DNA from: Magnetococcales bacterium
GTDB taxonomy: Bacteria; Pseudomonadota; Magnetococcia; Magnetococcales; Magnetaquicoccaceae
Length of the DNA stretch: 35,822 nucleotides
Direction: 5' to 3'
Assembly (NCBI GenBank): GCA_015231775.1
Contig: JADGAY010000019.1
Span: 1-35,822, forward strand
Part shown: positions 7,337 through 34,328 of the stretch, in pieces
Numbering within the stretch: the stretch's first letter is position 1
Layout: every line of letters begins with the position of its first letter
Notes under the pieces: generated by a model
Seen by the model: only the letters and a program-made list of their open reading frames with translations
Databases searched by the model: none
Told to the model about the DNA's origin: nothing
Position numbers and translations under genes: made by a program

Positions 7337-8506
7337 TCATCCGATTCCAGCAGCGGCGCGCAGCGCCTCCACTTTGTCGGCCCGCTCCCAGGTGAACTCG
7401 GGCAACTCGCGCCCGAAGTGACCATACGCGGCGGTCTTGGCATAGATGGGACGCAGCAGGTTCAACTGCACGGTGATCGCCTTGGGACGCAGATCAAAGG
7501 TATCGGCCACGATCTGCTCGATGCGGGCATCGGGAATCCGCCCGGTGCCGAAGGTCTCGACCATCAACGAGACCGGTCTGGAGAGGCCGATGGCATAGGC
7601 CACCTGGATCTCGCAACGCCGGGCCAAGCCGGCGGCGACGATGTTCTTGGCCACATAGCGGCCCATGTAGGCCGACGAACGGTCCACCTTGGAGGGATCC
7701 TTGCCCGAGAAGGCGCCGCCGCCATGACGTCCGGCACCGCCGTAGGTATCGACGATGATCTTGCGTCCGGTGACGCCGCAGTCGCCCACCGGTCCACCGA
7801 TCACGAACCGTCCGGTGGGATTGACATGGTAGACCACCTTTGGGCTCAACAATTCCGCAGGGATCACCGGCTTGATGATCTCCTCGATCACCGCCTCGCG
7901 CAACGCCTCGTAGGCGATGTCCGGGTCGTGCTGGGTGGAGACCACCACTGCCTCGACCCCGGTCGGACGACCGTTCTCGTAGCGCACCGTCACCTGGGAC
8001 TTGGCGTCCGGGCGCAGCCAGCGGAGCTGACCGGACTTGCGCACCTGGGACTGACGCTCCATGAGCCGGTGGGCATAATGGATCGGCATGGGCATCAAGG
8101 CCGGGGTTTCGTCGCAGGCGTAGCCGAACATCAACCCCTGATCGCCGGCGCCCTGATCCAGATCGATCCCCTCGCCCTCGTTCACCCCCTGGGCGATGTC
8201 CGTGGACTGTTTGTCCAGGGAGACCAGCACCGCGCAGGAGGCGTAATCGAATCCCATCTCCGAGGAGTTGTAACCGATCTCGCGAATCGCCTCGCGCGCC
8301 ACGGTCGGATAGTCGATCACCGCACGGGTGGTGATTTCACCCGCCACCACCACCATGCCGGTGGTCACCAGGGTTTCGCACGCCACGCGGCTGGTGGGTT
8401 CCTGGGCCAGAATGGCATCCAACACGCCATCGGAGATCCGATCGGCCATTTTGTCCGGGTGACCCTCGGAGACCGACTCCGATGAGAAGAGAAACGTTCG
8501 CTCCAT
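7337..8506 (-). CDS. metK: S-adenosylmethionine synthetase
   Basis: Makes S-adenosylmethionine from methionine and ATP. The chosen ATG at 8506 gives 389 aa beginning [19 protein letters not shown], the family's usual N-terminus, with GGAG 9 bases upstream. A longer reading frame extends 53 codons further but runs through a repeat and is not conserved. Motifs: GHPDK near the N-terminus, [12 protein letters not shown] (methionine loop), and [16 protein letters not shown] (P-loop-like). It forms an apparent operon with ahcY. The 353 bases between this start and the upstream M20 peptidase hold two tandem palindromic repeats (8584-8723) and about 75 bases of unique leader. I could not fit a known SAM riboswitch to the leader. 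Confidence 0.97.
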
Positions 8507-8583
8507 GCCTTGCAACTCCAGGTTGATCAAAGGGAGGGGAAATGCCGCCAGGATGCACCTCGGCGTGCCCGAGAGAAACCGAT

Positions 8584-8723
8584 TAAACTTGCATGATGGG
8601 GGGGGGAGAACCCCCTCACCCCCAACCATGGACCTCCCTTGGGGAGTTCCATGGTAAACTTGCATGATGGGGGGAGAACCCCCTCACCCCCCAACCATGG
8701 ACCTCCCTTTGGGAGTTCCATGG
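8584..8723 (+). repeat. Tandem pair of a dispersed palindromic repeat (copies A and B)
   Basis: Two adjacent units, 8584-8654 (71 bases) and 8655-8723 (69 bases), differ only by small changes in homopolymer length. Each starts TAAACTTGCATGATGGGGG, passes through a G-run/C-run hairpin (GGGGGAGAACCCCC), then CTCACCCCC and a second hairpin whose arms are CCATGGACCTCCC and GGAGTTCCATGG. Two further relatives lie at 34329-34387 and 34589-34660, so this is a dispersed family and not a one-off duplication. It sits in the leader or promoter region of metK, on the opposite strand. Not coding. Confidence 0.85.
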
Positions 8724-8859
8724 TAAAAAAAATGAAAGGATAATCGATTCTCGAATGTCAAACAACCTTAAAATGATGCGGGTCGGCCAAGGAAAACAGA
8801 CAAAGAAGAGGCATCAACAGGCCATCGGACGCGACCGCCCCTTTGATCCTGGGACCGGT

Positions 8860-20494: not shown

Positions 20495-21856
20495 TCAGGC
20501 GGCGCGGGCGTTGGTCTGGGTGGCCTGCAGCGTGGAGAAGACCCGACCCAACTGGCGGATGCTCTCCTCCATCCCACACCCCTGGGACACCGGTTGACGC
20601 AGAAAGTCGCGAATCGGCTTGATGAGCTTCAAGGCCATGTCGATGCGCGGGTTGGAGCCCTGCACGTAGGCGCCGATGTTGATCATGTCCTCGGCCTGGG
20701 TGTAGGCGGCCAGGGACTCGCGCAGTTGTCCGGCCCACCCCTTCTGGGTCTCGCCGGCCAGATCGCTCATCAGACGGGAGAGGGATCCCAACACGTCGAT
20801 GGCCGGATAGTGGTTGGAGGAAGCCAGATCGCGCGAGAGCACGAAGTGACCGTCCAGGATACCACGCACCGCGTCCACGATCGGATCCTGCAGGTCGTCC
20901 CCCTCCATGAGGACGGTATAGAGCCCGGTGATGCTCCCCTCGCCGCTGTCCCGACCGGCCCGTTCCAGCAGACGCGGCAGCAGCATGAAGGTCGAGGGCG
21001 GATAACCGCGACTGGTGGGCGGTTCACCCCGCGCCAGCCCGACCTCGCGTTGCGCCATGGCAAAACGGGTCAAGGAGTCCATCAACAGCAGCACATGCTG
21101 CTGACGGGCGCGGAAATACTCGGCGATCGAGGTGGCCAGATGAGCCGCGCGCAACCGCAACAGGGGCGGCTGATCGGAGGTGGCCACCACCACCACGGAG
21201 CGCTGCATCCCCTCCGGACCCAGATCCTTTTCCAGAAACTCCACCACCTCGCGGCCACGTTCGCCGACTAAGGCGATCACGTTGACATCCGCCTCGGTGT
21301 AACGGGCCATCATGCCCAGCAGCGTGCTCTTGCCCACGCCGGAACCCGAGAAGATCCCCACCCGCTGGCCGCGTCCGATGGTCAACAGACCGTTGATCGC
21401 CCGCACCCCCAGATCGAGACTCTCGGAGATGCGCCGGCGGTGCAACGGATTGATCGGCTCGGCGTGCAACGGGGTGAATTCGGAGAGATGGAGCGGCGGA
21501 CCGTGATCGATCGGCACCCCCGTCGGCCCCAACACCCGACCCAGCAGCGCCTCGCCCACCCCCACCATCTCCGCCCGTCCACGCGAGACGATCAGGCTTC
21601 CCGGATGGATCCCCTTGATCGCCCCCAAAGGCATCAGCAACAGGGCATCACTGCGGAATCCCACCACCTCGGCGCGAATCGCCGGCGAGCCGTCATCCGG
21701 ATAGACCTCGCACATATCGCCGATCGAGGCCGAGGGGCCCTCCCCCTCGATCAGAAGACCCAACACCTGCGCCACCTTGCCGGTGCGCTTCATGCCGAGT
21801 CCGCGCCGCGCCGACTCCTGATAGTCACGCCAGGGCAGTTCCAGGTCGAAATTCAT
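20495..21856 (-). CDS. fliI: Flagellum-specific ATPase FliI
   Basis: Hexameric ATPase of the flagellar type III export apparatus. The chosen ATG at 21856 overlaps the fliH stop (ATGA) and gives 453 aa. A P-loop GSGVGKST (171-178), catalytic E199 in LVGERGREV and Walker B aspartate D260 in LLLMDSLTRFAMAQRE are present. The FliI/SctN-type segment GEPPTSRGYPPSTF separates it from the F1 beta subunit. The N-terminal roughly 20 residues, which in other species bind FliH, are retained. Last gene of the flgB-flgC-fliE-fliF-fliG-fliH-fliI run. Its usual partner fliJ is not found downstream. Confidence 0.96.
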   Translation of the reverse strand: MNFDLELPWRDYQESARRGLGMKRTGKVAQVLGLLIEGEGPSASIGDMCEVYPDDGSPAIRAEVVGFRSDALLLMPLGAIKGIHPGSLIVSRGRAEMVGVGEALLGRVLGPTGVPIDHGPPLHLSEFTPLHAEPINPLHRRRISESLDLGVRAINGLLTIGRGQRVGIFSGSGVGKSTLLGMMARYTEADVNVIALVGERGREVVEFLEKDLGPEGMQRSVVVVATSDQPPLLRLRAAHLATSIAEYFRARQQHVLLLMDSLTRFAMAQREVGLARGEPPTSRGYPPSTFMLLPRLLERAGRDSGEGSITGLYTVLMEGDDLQDPIVDAVRGILDGHFVLSRDLASSNHYPAIDVLGSLSRLMSDLAGETQKGWAGQLRESLAAYTQAEDMINIGAYVQGSNPRIDMALKLIKPIRDFLRQPVSQGCGMEESIRQLGRVFSTLQATQTNARAA

Positions 21857-23037
21857 GACGCCTCCGTGAAGATCTCGTCGATGGCCAACTCTTCCACCCG
21901 ATCCTCGGGATCCAGATCCGCACCAGACCAGTCGTCCTCGGCCAAGGCGCCCCAATCCTCCCCGCCGATCAACTCTTCACCACCGAACGCCGCTTCGGCC
22001 AGCTCTTCACCACCGAGCGCCGCTTCGGCCAGCTCTTCACCACCGAACGCCGCTTCGGCCAGCTCTTCACCACCGAGCGCCGCTTCGGCCAGCTCTTCAC
22101 CACCGAGCGCCGCTTCGGCGGCCACGGCCAGCGCGGCGGGAGCCAACGCCGTCAGCGCGGCAGGGGCCAACGTCTCCTCCTTGGCCCGCGCAACGACGGG
22201 CATGGGCGGACGGATGGGACGATTCGGCACGCTGCCCGGATCCGGGGTGAGCGGAACCGGTTCCCGAGCCGCGGCCAACGTGGCCGCCTCCCGCGCCCGC
22301 TCGGCGATGTCCGGCACATCCATGGCATCCAGACGCTCCTGGAGATACTCGCGCATGGCGAGTTCCACCTCCTTGAGCTGGATCTCCAGATTGTCCTCCA
22401 GACCGCCGAAATCGCTCTCCAGATGGACCGCGCCCGAGGTCAACGTCGGATCCGCCTCGATGTTCAGATTGCCGAAAGCTCGAATCCGTTCCAGAATCCG
22501 CGCATTGCCCGGCGACACCCGGATCACGATCCCCTTGCGTCCAGAGGCGCGCTTGAGAATCCGCTTGACCCGCTCGGCCACGATCTCGGGTTTGATCGTC
22601 AATTCGGTGGCGATCAAGTCGCGGATCAGCACCAGGGTGGTCTCGACCAGATAGCGCTCCGCGCCGGCCAGAATGCGTTCGTGAAGCTGCTCGAGATTGG
22701 AGAGCACCCCTTCGAGTCGCGGGAGCATGGCGTGGATCTCGCGCTCCACCCGCTCCTCGCCGGCCTTGAGTCCGGCGGCCTCGGCGGCGGCGAAAACCCG
22801 TTGATAGACCTCCCGCTCCATCTGCTCCAGACGCCGGGCGTGCAACTCCTCGGCTGAAATCTCCGGCTCCTTCTTGGGCGGCACCACCACGGGCAGTCGT
22901 CCATCCGGACGCAACCGCAAGAAGTGCTCTCCCTTGATCTCGCGCGGCGCGTCGAGCAGGGCGCCAATCCCCACCCGACGGCACTCCAACCCGCCGGCAT
23001 CGGCCTTGATGATCTCCGCAACGTTACTCTCGGACAC
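21853..23037 (-). CDS. fliH: Flagellar assembly protein FliH with repeat-bearing C-terminal extension
   Basis: FliH regulates the FliI ATPase and links it to the export gate and C-ring. The 394-aa protein starts at GTG with AAGGGA upstream. The core (about residues 60-245) has a coiled-coil stretch and the FliH/V-type ATPase subunit E-like domain (LVETTLVLIRDLIATELTI, VRVSPGNARI, ADPTLTSGAVHLESDFG). Most FliH proteins end soon after this domain. Here about 145 further residues follow: a proline/alanine-rich linker, five copies of the decapeptide EAALGGEELA (or EAAFGGEELA) at about 308-357, and a strongly acidic tail (EDWGALAEDDW...). Placement between fliG and fliI confirms identity. The tail's role is unknown. 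Confidence 0.93.
   Translation of the reverse strand: MSESNVAEIIKADAGGLECRRVGIGALLDAPREIKGEHFLRLRPDGRLPVVVPPKKEPEISAEELHARRLEQMEREVYQRVFAAAEAAGLKAGEERVEREIHAMLPRLEGVLSNLEQLHERILAGAERYLVETTLVLIRDLIATELTIKPEIVAERVKRILKRASGRKGIVIRVSPGNARILERIRAFGNLNIEADPTLTSGAVHLESDFGGLEDNLEIQLKEVELAMREYLQERLDAMDVPDIAERAREAATLAAAREPVPLTPDPGSVPNRPIRPPMPVVARAKEETLAPAALTALAPAALAVAAEAALGGEELAEAALGGEELAEAAFGGEELAEAALGGEELAEAAFGGEELIGGEDWGALAEDDWSGADLDPEDRVEELAIDEIFTEAS
21971..22120 (-). repeat. Minisatellite: five 30-bp tandem units within fliH
   Basis: Five exactly adjacent 30-base units begin at 21971, 22001, 22031, 22061 and 22091. They are almost identical, differing mainly at one A/G position (GAACGCC against GAGCGCC) that alternates leucine and phenylalanine in the encoded decapeptide, plus single changes at the two ends. 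Because the unit is a multiple of three, gain or loss of units keeps fliH in frame. Such near-identity at the DNA level suggests recent slippage or gene conversion. Confidence 0.95.
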
Positions 23038-23118: not shown

Positions 23119-24213
23119 TTACAGCACCACGTCGTCGGTGCCCTTGCCCATGATGACGATGGCACCCTCGGCCTCGAGACGACGCGCCGCCTTGAGAATG
23201 CTCTGCTGGGCGGATTCGACGTCGGCGACCTTCACCGGTCCCATCATCTCCAGATCCTCGCGCAGCATCTCCGCCGCGCGTTCGGACATGTTCTGGAAGA
23301 ACTTCTCCTTGAGTCGATCGTCGGTCCCCTTGAGGGCCGAAAGCAGCTCGTCGTTGTTGACCTCGCGCAACAGGGTCTGGAAGCTCTTGTCGTCCATGAG
23401 CAGCAGATCCTCGAACAGGAACATCTCCTTGCGCACCTCCTCGGCGAGGGGATTGTCCTCCTCGTCAAGATAGGCCAACAGCTTGTCGGAGAGGTCGCGG
23501 CTCATCATGTTCAACAGCTCCGCCACCTTCTTGACACCACCACCACCCTCCTTCGCATATCCACCCCGGGTGGCGCCCAACGCCTCGAGTTCGGTCAACA
23601 GGGACTCCTCGATATCCTCCAGCGCCCCAGGCGGCAGACTGCCGAGCTTGGCCATGCGCAGGATCACCTCCTGCTGCACGTCGCTGATCAAATAATCGAC
23701 CACATAGGAGGCCTGCTCCACCTGCAACTGGGACAGGATCAACGCGATGCTCTGGGGATGCTCGTTGGCCAGGAAGGTGGCCACCAGCGTTGGCTCCATG
23801 GCATTGAGGATCTCCCAGGGGGTGTTCTTGGGCCCCTGCTGCAACTCCTTGAGGAACTGACGCGCCTTCTCCTTGCCCAGGGCCTTGGAGATCATGTCCT
23901 TGACCTTGTTCATGCCGCCGCGCACGTCGAACTGCTGCAACTCGAACCGGTCCAAAAACTCCTGACGCACCGCCCGCACCACCTCCTGGGGGGTGCTGCC
24001 GATCCGGGCGATGGTGCGGGTCAACTCGCGCACCTCGTCCTCCTGCATCCCATCCAGGATCTTCTTCACATCCTCGTCGGCCAGGGACAGGATGAAGATC
24101 GCCGCCTTCTCCTTGCCGGTCAGCTTGGTGCGCGAACTGATCTTGCGCTTCGGCACCGCTTCCCCAGCCGGATCGTTCCAGACTTCGTTGTCAACAACCG
24201 CTGCTTCCGCCAT
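23119..24213 (-). CDS. fliG: Flagellar motor switch protein FliG
   Basis: C-ring protein that receives torque from MotA and joins the MS ring (FliF) to FliM. The 364-aa protein begins with a hydrophilic extension of about 30 residues, followed by LTGKEKAAIFILSLADEDV, the start of the FliF-binding domain. The middle domain carries the EHPQSIALILSQL motif. The C-terminal torque domain has the charged helix region (LLREVNNDELLSALKG, LKEKFFQNMSERAAEMLRED). All three armadillo-like domains are present. GAGAGGA lies 7 bases before the ATG. fliF precedes it by 48 bases and fliH follows after 81 bases. Confidence 0.96.
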   Translation of the reverse strand: MAEAAVVDNEVWNDPAGEAVPKRKISSRTKLTGKEKAAIFILSLADEDVKKILDGMQEDEVRELTRTIARIGSTPQEVVRAVRQEFLDRFELQQFDVRGGMNKVKDMISKALGKEKARQFLKELQQGPKNTPWEILNAMEPTLVATFLANEHPQSIALILSQLQVEQASYVVDYLISDVQQEVILRMAKLGSLPPGALEDIEESLLTELEALGATRGGYAKEGGGGVKKVAELLNMMSRDLSDKLLAYLDEEDNPLAEEVRKEMFLFEDLLLMDDKSFQTLLREVNNDELLSALKGTDDRLKEKFFQNMSERAAEMLREDLEMMGPVKVADVESAQQSILKAARRLEAEGAIVIMGKGTDDVVL

Positions 24214-29212: not shown

Positions 29213-32200
29213 CTACCGCGCCGCGAACTCCTGCAGCACCTCCAACAACCGCTTCCGGGAGATCGGCTTGGAGAGGTAATAATCACACCCCGCGGCCATG
29301 GCCTCGGCAGAGGCCTCCTGCATGGCATGGGCGGTCAGGGCCACCACCGGGGTCGGGACCATCCCCTGCTCCATCTCCCAGGCGCGCATCGTCCGCGTGG
29401 CCGCGTAGCCGTCCATGATCGGCATCTGGATGTCCATCAGCACGATGTCAAACCGCGCCTTCTGAAAAAATTCCACAGCCTGTTCCCCATGTTCGGCGAA
29501 GGTCAGTTGATGGGGGGTGCCCTTCAAAAAGGCCCGGATCAACAACCGGTTATCCTCGGAGTCCTCGGCCAGCAGGATCGACAACCCCCGTTCCGCGTCA
29601 CGGGTCGTCTCTTCACGCGCCCCCTGGCGCACCACCGAAACCAGAGGGTGCGCCCCCTCCTCCTTGACCGTCGGCAGTTCGAGGGAAAACGAAAAGCGAC
29701 TTCCCTGCCCCACCGCGCTCTCGACCGCGATCCGCCCCCCCATCCGCTCCACCAGCAGCGCGCAGATCGACAACCCCAAACCCGATCCGCCAAACTTGCG
29801 GGTGATGGAGCGATCCGCCTGTCGGAACGGCTGGAAGATGCTGGTCAACTTGTCTGGGGGAATGCCGATGCCGGTATCGCGGATCGCGAACAGGATCCGT
29901 CCGCCCGGCTCGCACCGCGCCTCCAGCGACACCTCCCCCTCGAAGGTGAACTTGACCGCATTGCCCAACAGGTTCAACAGAATCTGCCGCAACCGGTTCG
30001 GATCCCCCCGCACATGCACCGGCAAACCCGGATCCACCACCCATTGCAACCGAATGCCCCGCTCCCGCGCCGGCACCTGCATGATCTCCGCCGTGCCGAT
30101 CACCAGGGCCGGCAGGTCGAAGGCGGAACACTCCGGATCGAACTGGCCGGCCTCGATCTTGGAAAAATCCAGCACATCGCTGATCAGGGCCAGCAGCGAC
30201 TCGCTCGCCTTGCGCGACATCTCCAGATACCGACGCTGCTCCTCCGTGGCGTTGGCCTCCATCAACAGCTCGTTCACCCCGAGGATCGCGTTGAGCGGGG
30301 TGCGGATCTCATGACTCATGTGGGCCAAAAAGGTCGATTTGGCGCGGTTGCCCGCCTCGGCCATCTCCCGTGCCCGTTCCGCCTCCTCCTTGGCGATGCG
30401 CAGCTCGACGGTGCGCGCCGCCACCTCCTTCTCGAGGGCATCGCGATGGCGCTTCAACTCCAGATGGGTGGCCACCCGGCGCCTGACGATCTCCCCGTGA
30501 AACGGCTTGGTGATGTAATCCACCCCGCCCAGCCGGAAACCCTCGCTCTCGTCGGCCACCTCCTTCTTGGCGGTGACGAAGATCACCGGAATCTCCTTGG
30601 TGCCCGGCTGCTCCCGCAACTGCCGGCACACCTCGTAGCCGTTCATCTCCGGCATCATGATATCCAGCAGGATCAGATCCGGCGGCTCTCCGGAGAGGGC
30701 GGCCCGCAACGCCTGGGGACCGCTCATCGCCACCTGCCGCTGGTAATCGACCAGCCACTCCTTCAACAGATCCACATTTCCCGGCTGGTCATCGACGATC
30801 AACACCCGCGCCTTGGGCGGCTCCTCGCGCGGCGGCGACACGGCGATCAACTCGCGTCCGAACAGGTGCGCCAGGGCATGCAGACGCTCCTCGGCCTCGG
30901 CGAAGTGGTAGACCTCGATCTGACGGGCCAACTCCTGGTAGGTGAACCAGGAGTCGCTGTTCTTGAGCAGCGACCCCAATTCGGCCAGCCACGGCTCCAC
31001 CTCGATGCCGCACCGGGTCACCCGATCGAGAATCCAGCTCATCAACCGCAGCGCCCGATCGATGTCCACGCCGGCCAGGTCGGCCCGCGCCATGCTCTGA
31101 TCCGGCGTCCCGGCCAGCCGCGCCGGATCCACCCCCAATCCGCCCATCACCACCCGCATCCTCTGGATGAAGGTGGCAAGCGCCACCTGGCGCCAGACGG
31201 CATCGTCGGCGGCGAGCGCCCTGATCAACTCGTCCGCGGCCTCGGCCAGGGTGATGGCGCCCACCGCCCGCGCCGCCCCGCGCAGCACATGGAGACGAAG
31301 CGCCGCATCCACGCGCCGATCCATCTCGATCAACCCCGGCAGGGCGTCGAGCATCTCCTCGTACTCGCGGCGGAAGCGGATCAGCAGGCGGCCATACAAC
31401 CCCCGATTCCCGGCCACCCGTTCCAGGCCGAAAACCGGATCGAGTCCAGGCAGACGCAGCAGCGGTTGCGACTCCGGGGCGGGGAATCCTTCGGGGGGAT
31501 CCCAGCCCTCGAAAGGCGCCACCCATTTTTTCAGCAATCCATGCAGACGCTCGGCGCGCGGCGGCAACTCCAGGCTGTCACGCATGCCCACATCCAGACA
31601 GTGACGTTTCTCCTCGATCCCACCCTGGGCCAGGAGGGCGATCACCGGCAGATCGGCGCCATTGGGCACCGCGCGCAGACGCGCCACGCACTCCGGACCG
31701 CCCCACTCCGGCAGTTGGGAGTCGATCAGCAGCACGTCGAAGGGATAGCGACCCGCCAGCTCCAGCACCTGCGCGCCATCCGTGGCCAGCTCGACCACCA
31801 GGCCGATCCGTTCCAACAGTTCGGTCAGAATCCGCGCCGACACCTCGCCGGCCTGGGCCAACAGCACCCGCGCCCCGCCGATGCGCGCGCCGGTCTCCTC
31901 CTCCTGGGCCAGGAGTTTCTCGCGGCGCCGATCGGCATGACCCGCCTCGCCCCCCCCTTGATGGGCCAGGCCACGGATCAGGCGCGAACGGGTGACCGGC
32001 TTGTCGATGAAGCCGTCCATGCCGGCCCGTTCCATCCGTTCGAGCACCTCGCCGATCCCGAACGGCGCCAGCAGTAGAATCACCGGACAGGGTGGTCTGG
32101 GCACCATAGCCTCCAGCGACGCCCGAATCTCCACCGCGGCCACGTCGCCATCCTTGCCCGGCATGCGCCAGTCCAGGAGCACATGGCTGTAAGGGGCGCG

Positions 32201-34264
32201 CCCGGTGCCGTTGGCGGCCAGCACCCGCGCCACCGCCTCGGCCCCGGATGAGACCACCTCGGGTTCGAGCAGCAACTCGCCGAGCAGCTCGGCCAAAGCC
32301 GCCCGCGCCCCTGGATCGTCATCAGCCACCAGCACCCGTCCGCCCCACAGCTCCTCCGGGAGGGTGAGCGCCTTGCGCCGGTTCTGACCGTGCACGCCCA
32401 CGCACACCTCGAAGCCGAACTCGCTCCCCTGCCCCGGCGCGCTCTCCGACCACATCCGCCCACCCATCAGCGACACCAGTCTCTGGCAGATCGACAGACC
32501 CAATCCGGTACCCCCATAACGACGGGTGGTGGAGCCATCCGCCTGCACAAAGGGGGCGAACAGGTTGGGGAGCATGACGGGATCGATGCCGATGCCGGTA
32601 TCGCGGACCGCGCAACTCAGGCAGACCCCACCATCCGGGGTGACGCGCGGGGTGATCCGAACCGTGACGCCCCCCTGTTCGGTGAACTTGATGGCGTTGC
32701 GGATCAGGTTGATCAACACCTGCTCCAGCCGGATCACATCCCCGAACAGCACCGCGTCGAACGCGGAGGGGAGCGCGAAGACCAGCTCGATGCGTCGGTC
32801 CGCCACCTGCTTGCTGAACAGGTCCGCCAGCCGCTCCACCAGCAGATACAGATCGAACGGCACCGGATCGAGGCTCATCTGGCCCGCCTCGAGTTTGGAG
32901 AAGTCGAGCAGATCGCTGATGATCCCCATCAACGAACGGGAGGCGTTCTCGATCTTGACCAGGTAATCCCGCACCCTGGGATTGAGATCGGCCTTGAGCG
33001 CCAGCTCCGTGAACCCCAACACCGCGTGCATCGGGGTACGGATCTCGTGGCTCATGTTGGCGATGAATTCGCTTTTGGCCACACTGGCCATCTCGGCCAC
33101 GGCCAGGGTCTCTTCCAGGGATTTCACCAACTGACGCCGGTCGGTGACATCCTGCAAAAAGCCGATGAAGCGGACCTTGCCATCCTGCACCGTGGAGGTG
33201 AGCGACACTTGCAGATCCACGCTCTGGCCATCGGCGCGCAGGCCCGGAAACTCCAGGCGGCGGCGCAGACGCGGCGCCTCGGCACCCAGGGCGGCGCATT
33301 TTCTCAACCCGACCCGATGGGCCTCGCGCTGCCCCTCCGGAACGATGAACTGCTCCAGGGGCTGGCCCAGCACCACGTCGCGGTGGTAGCCGAAAAGCTG
33401 TTCGGCGGCGGGATTGAACTCCACCACCCGCCCCTCCTCATCGGTGGTGATGATGGCATCCAGGGCATGGGCCAGAATCGCCTGATGGCGATCCAGCAGG
33501 CGGACGATGGACTGATAACGCTCGATGTTCTCGAGGTTCTGATGGACCCGGCACAGCAACTCCTCGGGCTGATACGGCTTGACGAGAAAATCGTTGGCCC
33601 CGGCCTTGATGAAGCGTGCCGCCAGGTCCGAGTCGCCCTGGGAGGAGAGGCCGATCACCGCCACCTCCTCGCGACCGTGACGGGCACGCAGACGCCGCGC
33701 GAACTCCACGCCATCCATGCCCGGCATCTGATAATCGCTGATCACCAGGGAGATGGTCTCGTTGCCCAGGATGCGCAGAGCCTCCTCGCCCTCCCCGGCC
33801 TCGCGCAACTCGAAACCGTGGCGTTCCAACAACCGGCTGAGCAAGCGACGTGCGGAACGGGAGTCATCGACCACCAGGATACGTGTCCGGCGGTTCGAGC
33901 GGAACCGCTCGATGGCCTGGATCACGGTATCGACCACCCCCGGACTGTCCTTGATGAAGTAATCCAGAAGCCCCTTGTCGAGAAAGATCTGCCGCAGTTG
34001 CGGCTTGAACATGCCTGTCAGAACGATGGACGGGAGTTGGTGGGTCACCATCAGATCGACGATCTCCCCTTCCGGGGCGTCGGGAAGAAACAGATCGAGC
34101 AGCGCCAGGAGAAACCGGCGCGGATACCTTTCGAGTACCACGCGCGCTTCGGCGAGACTCTTGGCGAGCACCACCTCCACGCCCAGGGCGCGTTGCAGCC
34201 GCGCCTTGATCAAAGCCGCGAAACTGCTCGAATCTTCGACGATCAAGATGGTGTCCATCGTCAT
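29213..34264 (-). CDS. Giant hybrid histidine kinase with two kinase cores, six receivers and an HPt
   Basis: About 1,683 aa, no membrane segment. Order: REC1 (about 4-120, phospho-Asp D57), REC2 (128-245, D177), PAS (265-385), DHp/HATPase 1 (H406 in [23 protein letters not shown]), REC3 (643-770, D698), REC4 (798-915, D848, but without the acidic pair or lysine of normal receivers), HPt-like helices (H992 in [13 protein letters not shown]), REC5 (1153-1270, D1201), coiled coil, DHp/HATPase 2 (H1318 in [23 protein letters not shown]), REC6 (1562-1680, D1611). Both kinase cores keep every ATP-binding box. It reads like two hybrid kinases joined in one open frame. The start is ATG 34264; ATG 34258, with GGGGA 9 bases upstream, is equally possible. 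It is divergent from the HAMP-PAS gene at 34688. Confidence 0.92.
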
Positions 34265-34328
34265 GCGTCCCCGACCTTGCCGACGTGAGGATGTCCGTGA
34301 GATCCACACGTTCCAGACCTGCATACCG

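Follow-up and report, generated by a model that had tools for sequence, protein, structure and literature searches.

FliH, with its counterpart SctL, is the stator protein of type III export, in which, according to the accessible parts of two reports (PMC9114704, PMC4443714), the C-terminal domain binds FliI and an N-terminal docking peptide (APAR) with a tryptophan clamp (W7/W10) contacts FliN-FliM and FlhA. One length-variable repeat has already been described in this protein, the GxxxG repeats of the helical N-terminal half, which in the available portion of PMC2674601 are strongly species-variable in length (m from 0 to 12) without an obvious explanation. The variable intragenic tandem repeats of bacteria treated in PMC3899988 are likewise coding tandem units with a slippage origin and changeable length, the bacterial cases in the accessible part of that source being mostly on/off phase switches. 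An in-frame coding minisatellite is a known kind of element, and a C-terminal, lineage-typical, repeatedly expanding FliH tail was not found in searches of the open-licence literature. Here, we characterize such an array in the C-terminal tail of the FliH encoded in a 35,822-nucleotide stretch from a Magnetococcales bacterium (assembly GCA_015231775.1, contig JADGAY010000019.1, positions 1 to 35,822; hereafter, the window). The array adds to FliH a second, independent repeat-length variable beside the GxxxG segment.

The window's fliH (21853-23037, minus strand) encodes a protein of 394 amino acids, from a GTG start, with congeners opening with the same VSE sequence, to a TGA stop at 21853-21855, and was identified by a match to Pfam PF02108 over residues 107-223 (E 3.1e-10; 40.5 bits against a curated cut-off of 24.1). 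It lies in the minus-strand gene order fliF, fliG, fliH, fliI, adjoining fliG (23119-24213, minus strand) and the export ATPase gene fliI (20495-21856, minus strand; TIGR01026, 573.5 bits); FliN was matched in all nine genomes searched. The PF02108 core and the place beside fliG and fliI are thus shared with FliH and SctL elsewhere, but the window's protein has about 158 extra residues after the FliI-binding core, with the array among them. With the end of the core set at residue 236, this tail comprises residues 237-394 (158 aa; 21856-22329, minus strand), contains 24% Asp and Glu, and carries a net charge of -30. It is probably disordered, as is weakly suggested by the low pLDDT of a single AlphaFold model of poor overall quality (mean pLDDT 50.7, pTM 0.25, 3 sequences; pLDDT below 50 for residues 258-394). 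The fliH stop and the fliI ATG overlap in an ATGA, and the final fliH codons of the window contain a GGAGG; across the order, 23 of 43 loci have the fliH stop within ATGA. With this arrangement, a frameshift in the tail would upset the fliI junction as well, which is one plausible reason why the tail arrays stay in frame. A 404-aa plus-strand ORF that runs across the array, opposite fliH and fliI, was not taken as a gene.

Tandem Repeats Finder (TRF) located the array at 21973-22119 (period 30, 4.9 copies, 97% matches, score 280), the top of the five rows in the window, and reading in the fliH frame resolved it into five 30-bp units, AEAA(L/F)GGEEL, that encode residues 307-356 (21970-22119, minus strand). 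The initial annotation had placed the array, correctly described as five nearly identical in-frame units in the FliH C-terminal tail, at 21971-22120, one base off at both ends. Made up of five tandem units inside a single gene, each a multiple of 3 bp long, the array belongs among in-frame coding minisatellites, for which three units suffice. It lies after the C-terminal domain, as opposed to the GxxxG repeats of the N-terminal half (as located in the available portion of PMC2674601), and the AEAALGGEEL units of residues 307-356 contain no GxxxG. Compared with the phase switches that predominate among the bacterial cases in the accessible part of PMC3899988, gain or loss of a 30-bp unit leaves the reading frame intact, which rules out a phase-variable contingency locus, and such a change would be graded in length. 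In coding order, position 5 of the units reads L, L, F, L, F, a series compatible with duplication of a two-unit block, among other possible histories.

The units vary solely at this L/F codon and at one synonymous codon, the last of unit 5, where TTG replaces CTG. In unit columns 1-9, codons for the same residue are always identical, which has a probability of about 10^-9.3 under independent codon choice, and the single synonymous change among the five units contrasts with a core dS of 0.84 and 0.91 between the window and two congeners. When the 30-bp unit was searched across its own genome with up to 3 mismatches, all five matches fell inside the array, and a 301-bp query found no match besides itself. 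This uniqueness, together with the absence of the array from all eight readable congeneric tails described below, argues that it is recent or homogenized, and the codon sharing bears out the same deduction from DNA homogeneity in the initial annotation. Adjoining the array is a weaker, older-looking degenerate repeat (LAPAALTA / LAPAALAVA; 22116-22176, minus strand, converted from 2362-2422 in the TRF row for locus L002; period 24, 2.7 copies, 75% matches, score 64).

The search for FliH covered 48 members of the order, including the window's genome, and matched 43 of them. Among the five genomes lacking a match, fliI adjoins a contig end in G001 and G040, and G004, G007, and G047 have no FliI match above the cut-off; in G001, the contig ends within fliH, leaving 167 tail residues readable. 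The genus is represented by 10 congeners (each species by a single genome), seven with a whole FliH tail, so that, counting the partial tail of G001, eight are readable. None of the eight contains the window's five-unit array, which, as far as unit number and tail were compared, is consequently not fixed among relatives, and in six of them the tail measures 86-93 residues. In alignments with congeners, the array and its flank form an insertion bounded by residues ~284 and ~361, before an acidic Trp-x7-Trp segment (W362, W370; 21928-21954, minus strand; delineated by alignment with two congeners) that directly follows the array. The Trp-x7-Trp spacing is kept in seven of the eight whole tails of the genus (the window's included), the exception being L009, the fliH locus of G002. 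This locus and that of G001 (L062) have in common another, degenerate array of 12-residue units, their tail DNA being 81% identical (400 of 492 aligned bases), and G001 has exactly 72 bp fewer within that array, equivalent to two 36-bp units. Thus, the in-frame change of unit number anticipated in the initial annotation does occur between species of the genus, as directly evidenced by the G002/G001 array, a different array of the same tail from that of the window.

Across the 43 Magnetococcales genomes, the number of residues after the Pfam FliH domain (computed as tail length plus 13) has a median of 171 and a range of 33-310. Outside the order, 49 FliH proteins were drawn from 71 matching genomes: the 29 best-scoring ones among the loci retrieved have a median of 18 residues and a maximum of 57, and 20 picked by hand, which include those with the longest open frames, have a median of 14 and a maximum of 31. 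The tails of 41 of the 43 order members exceed the longest of these 49 (57 aa), in agreement with the earlier description of the array as lying in an extension that ordinary FliH proteins lack; short tails, of 33 and 41 aa after the Pfam domain, exist in the order as well. Ten of the 43 tails, the window's among them, reached TRF scores of at least 100; they represent 6 of 14 families, and their units are unrelated. No such score was obtained for any of the 43 FliH cores or in any of 100 sets made by codon shuffling of the 43 tails. Among the 43 loci, the tails gave 33 TRF rows (15 genomes; 19 kb scanned), the cores 4 (4 genomes; 32 kb), and the flanks 8 (7 genomes; 98 kb). The period is divisible by 3 in 32 of the 33 tail rows versus 4 of the 8 flank rows (rows of one array overlap). 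The strongest tail arrays are those of L013 (60-bp units, 6.8 copies) and L045 (63-bp units, 7.1 copies). The long FliH tail is a trait found throughout the Magnetococcales, in which arrays with unrelated units arose repeatedly, and the window's array is therefore one case of an order-wide pattern that the initial annotation had missed. The 28 of 43 tails without any TRF row, along with the short tails, indicate that neither repeats nor length is needed across the order.

In all 12 pairs compared, dN/dS is higher in the tail (~0.12-0.59) than in the core (~0.03-0.21) and below 1 throughout, as estimated with a simple Nei-Gojobori script after dropping the first 25 aligned core codons and with several dS values near saturation; the tails of the order are mostly acidic. 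The explanation that we favor, with roughly even confidence, is that a young in-frame minisatellite in the long acidic Magnetococcales FliH tail serves as a length-variable spacer. Slippage or unequal recombination would multiply units in frame inside the tail, where selection may preserve the frame and the general character (acidic and probably disordered) rather than exact length and sequence; under such loose selection, short in-frame duplications would accumulate in many lineages. Given that the FliI-binding domain of FliH is the C-terminal one (in the accessible parts of PMC9114704 and PMC4443714), a tail behind it would hang near FliI, and the array would act as an acidic spacer from the FliI-binding domain to the terminal Trp-x7-Trp segment.

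The main rival, which we hold to be possible and distinctly less probable, is that the array arose by neutral slippage in a tail that tolerates in-frame insertions and has no role of its own. The higher dN/dS of the tail than of the core in all 12 pairs, the unrelatedness of units between lineages, and the congeners that manage without the window's array all agree with it, and a neutral origin accounts for the same sequence data as the spacer does. The tails have nonetheless remained long (41 of 43 above the outside maximum) and mostly acidic with dN/dS below 1, which speaks for selection on the tail rather than on the array within it. If the tail does have a role, the Magnetococcales offer a natural series of FliH proteins in which the arm differs in length by whole units and the core is conserved, making a link between geometry and export testable; if it has none, the array still points to a site within a conserved machine at which repeated in-frame expansion is tolerated.

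The units might instead be tandem short binding motifs, their number setting avidity for FliI, FliJ, FliN, or a chaperone. Several tails do repeat short acidic-hydrophobic units (20 residues in L013, 21 in L045, and 12 in L019 and L009), but a conserved partner would not favor units that are unrelated between lineages, and from the sequences we judge this improbable. We are equally doubtful of a broader proposal in which the tail would be a second docking arm that followed loss of the N-terminal Trp clamp, the number of units setting reach or avidity and hence the export rate, and in which the acidic tail with its terminal Trp or repeated motifs would help to keep the FliI ring in place at the C-ring or the export gate. 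Like the docking peptide with its W7/W10 clamp, as described in the accessible parts of PMC4443714 and PMC9114704, the window's tail has an acidic segment with two Trp residues, but they lie at the opposite end of the protein and with another spacing. The N-terminal pair itself is absent, the window's FliH core being devoid of Trp, as are 41 of the 43 cores of the order in a count with the L044 N-terminus masked; L036 has one Trp before the first Met and L019 one in the coiled coil. Trp is found in 27 of the 43 tails. A simple transfer of the clamp to the tail was rejected on the grounds that the other 16 tails are Trp-free and that 14 of the 49 outside FliH proteins (first-ATG rule) lack an N-terminal Trp without having a long tail, so that its absence is not specific to the order. 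Order members have in common an N-terminal FliH stretch of their own, which could be a docking element.

Single units of the 12-residue array of L009 and L062 resemble the EIDAL motif of the FliM N-terminus. A CheY-like motif was considered in this connection, QQEIDAL of the L009 tail being similar to ILSxxEID(A/S)L(M/L) in the FliM N-termini of the five genomes compared, and was not retained, as a likeness of five residues may be due to chance in an acidic, Ala/Leu-rich tail; the motif is absent from the window's units. The L013 tail units may resemble the CheZ C-terminus.

It is very unlikely, more so than either of the binding proposals, that the array or its unit number is an artefact of the draft assembly (389 contigs, 88.97% complete), even with tandem repeats being a known cause of assembly errors (in the available part of PMC6868369), considering that the longest exact repeat within 21851-22250 spans 74 bases, such that any longer assembly word crosses the five units unambiguously, and that the frame continues into a normal C-terminus and the ATGA overlap with fliI.

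Several other features of the contig were recorded. A palindrome-rich unit of about 70 bp, present in 2.1 tandem copies at 8584-8727, has at least 43 matches in its own genome (in a first look that scored 40 of 148 candidates) and hence represents a dispersed repeat family. The repeat overlaps the start of an S-adenosylmethionine synthetase ORF (7337-8665), the Pfam match of which begins only at residue 58, so that the true start may be further in. A 381-aa ORF at 17489-18634 matches an alpha/beta hydrolase family (DUF900), and a 1703-aa ORF at 29213-34324 has hybrid sensor kinase family matches in several separate stretches, with two kinase regions.
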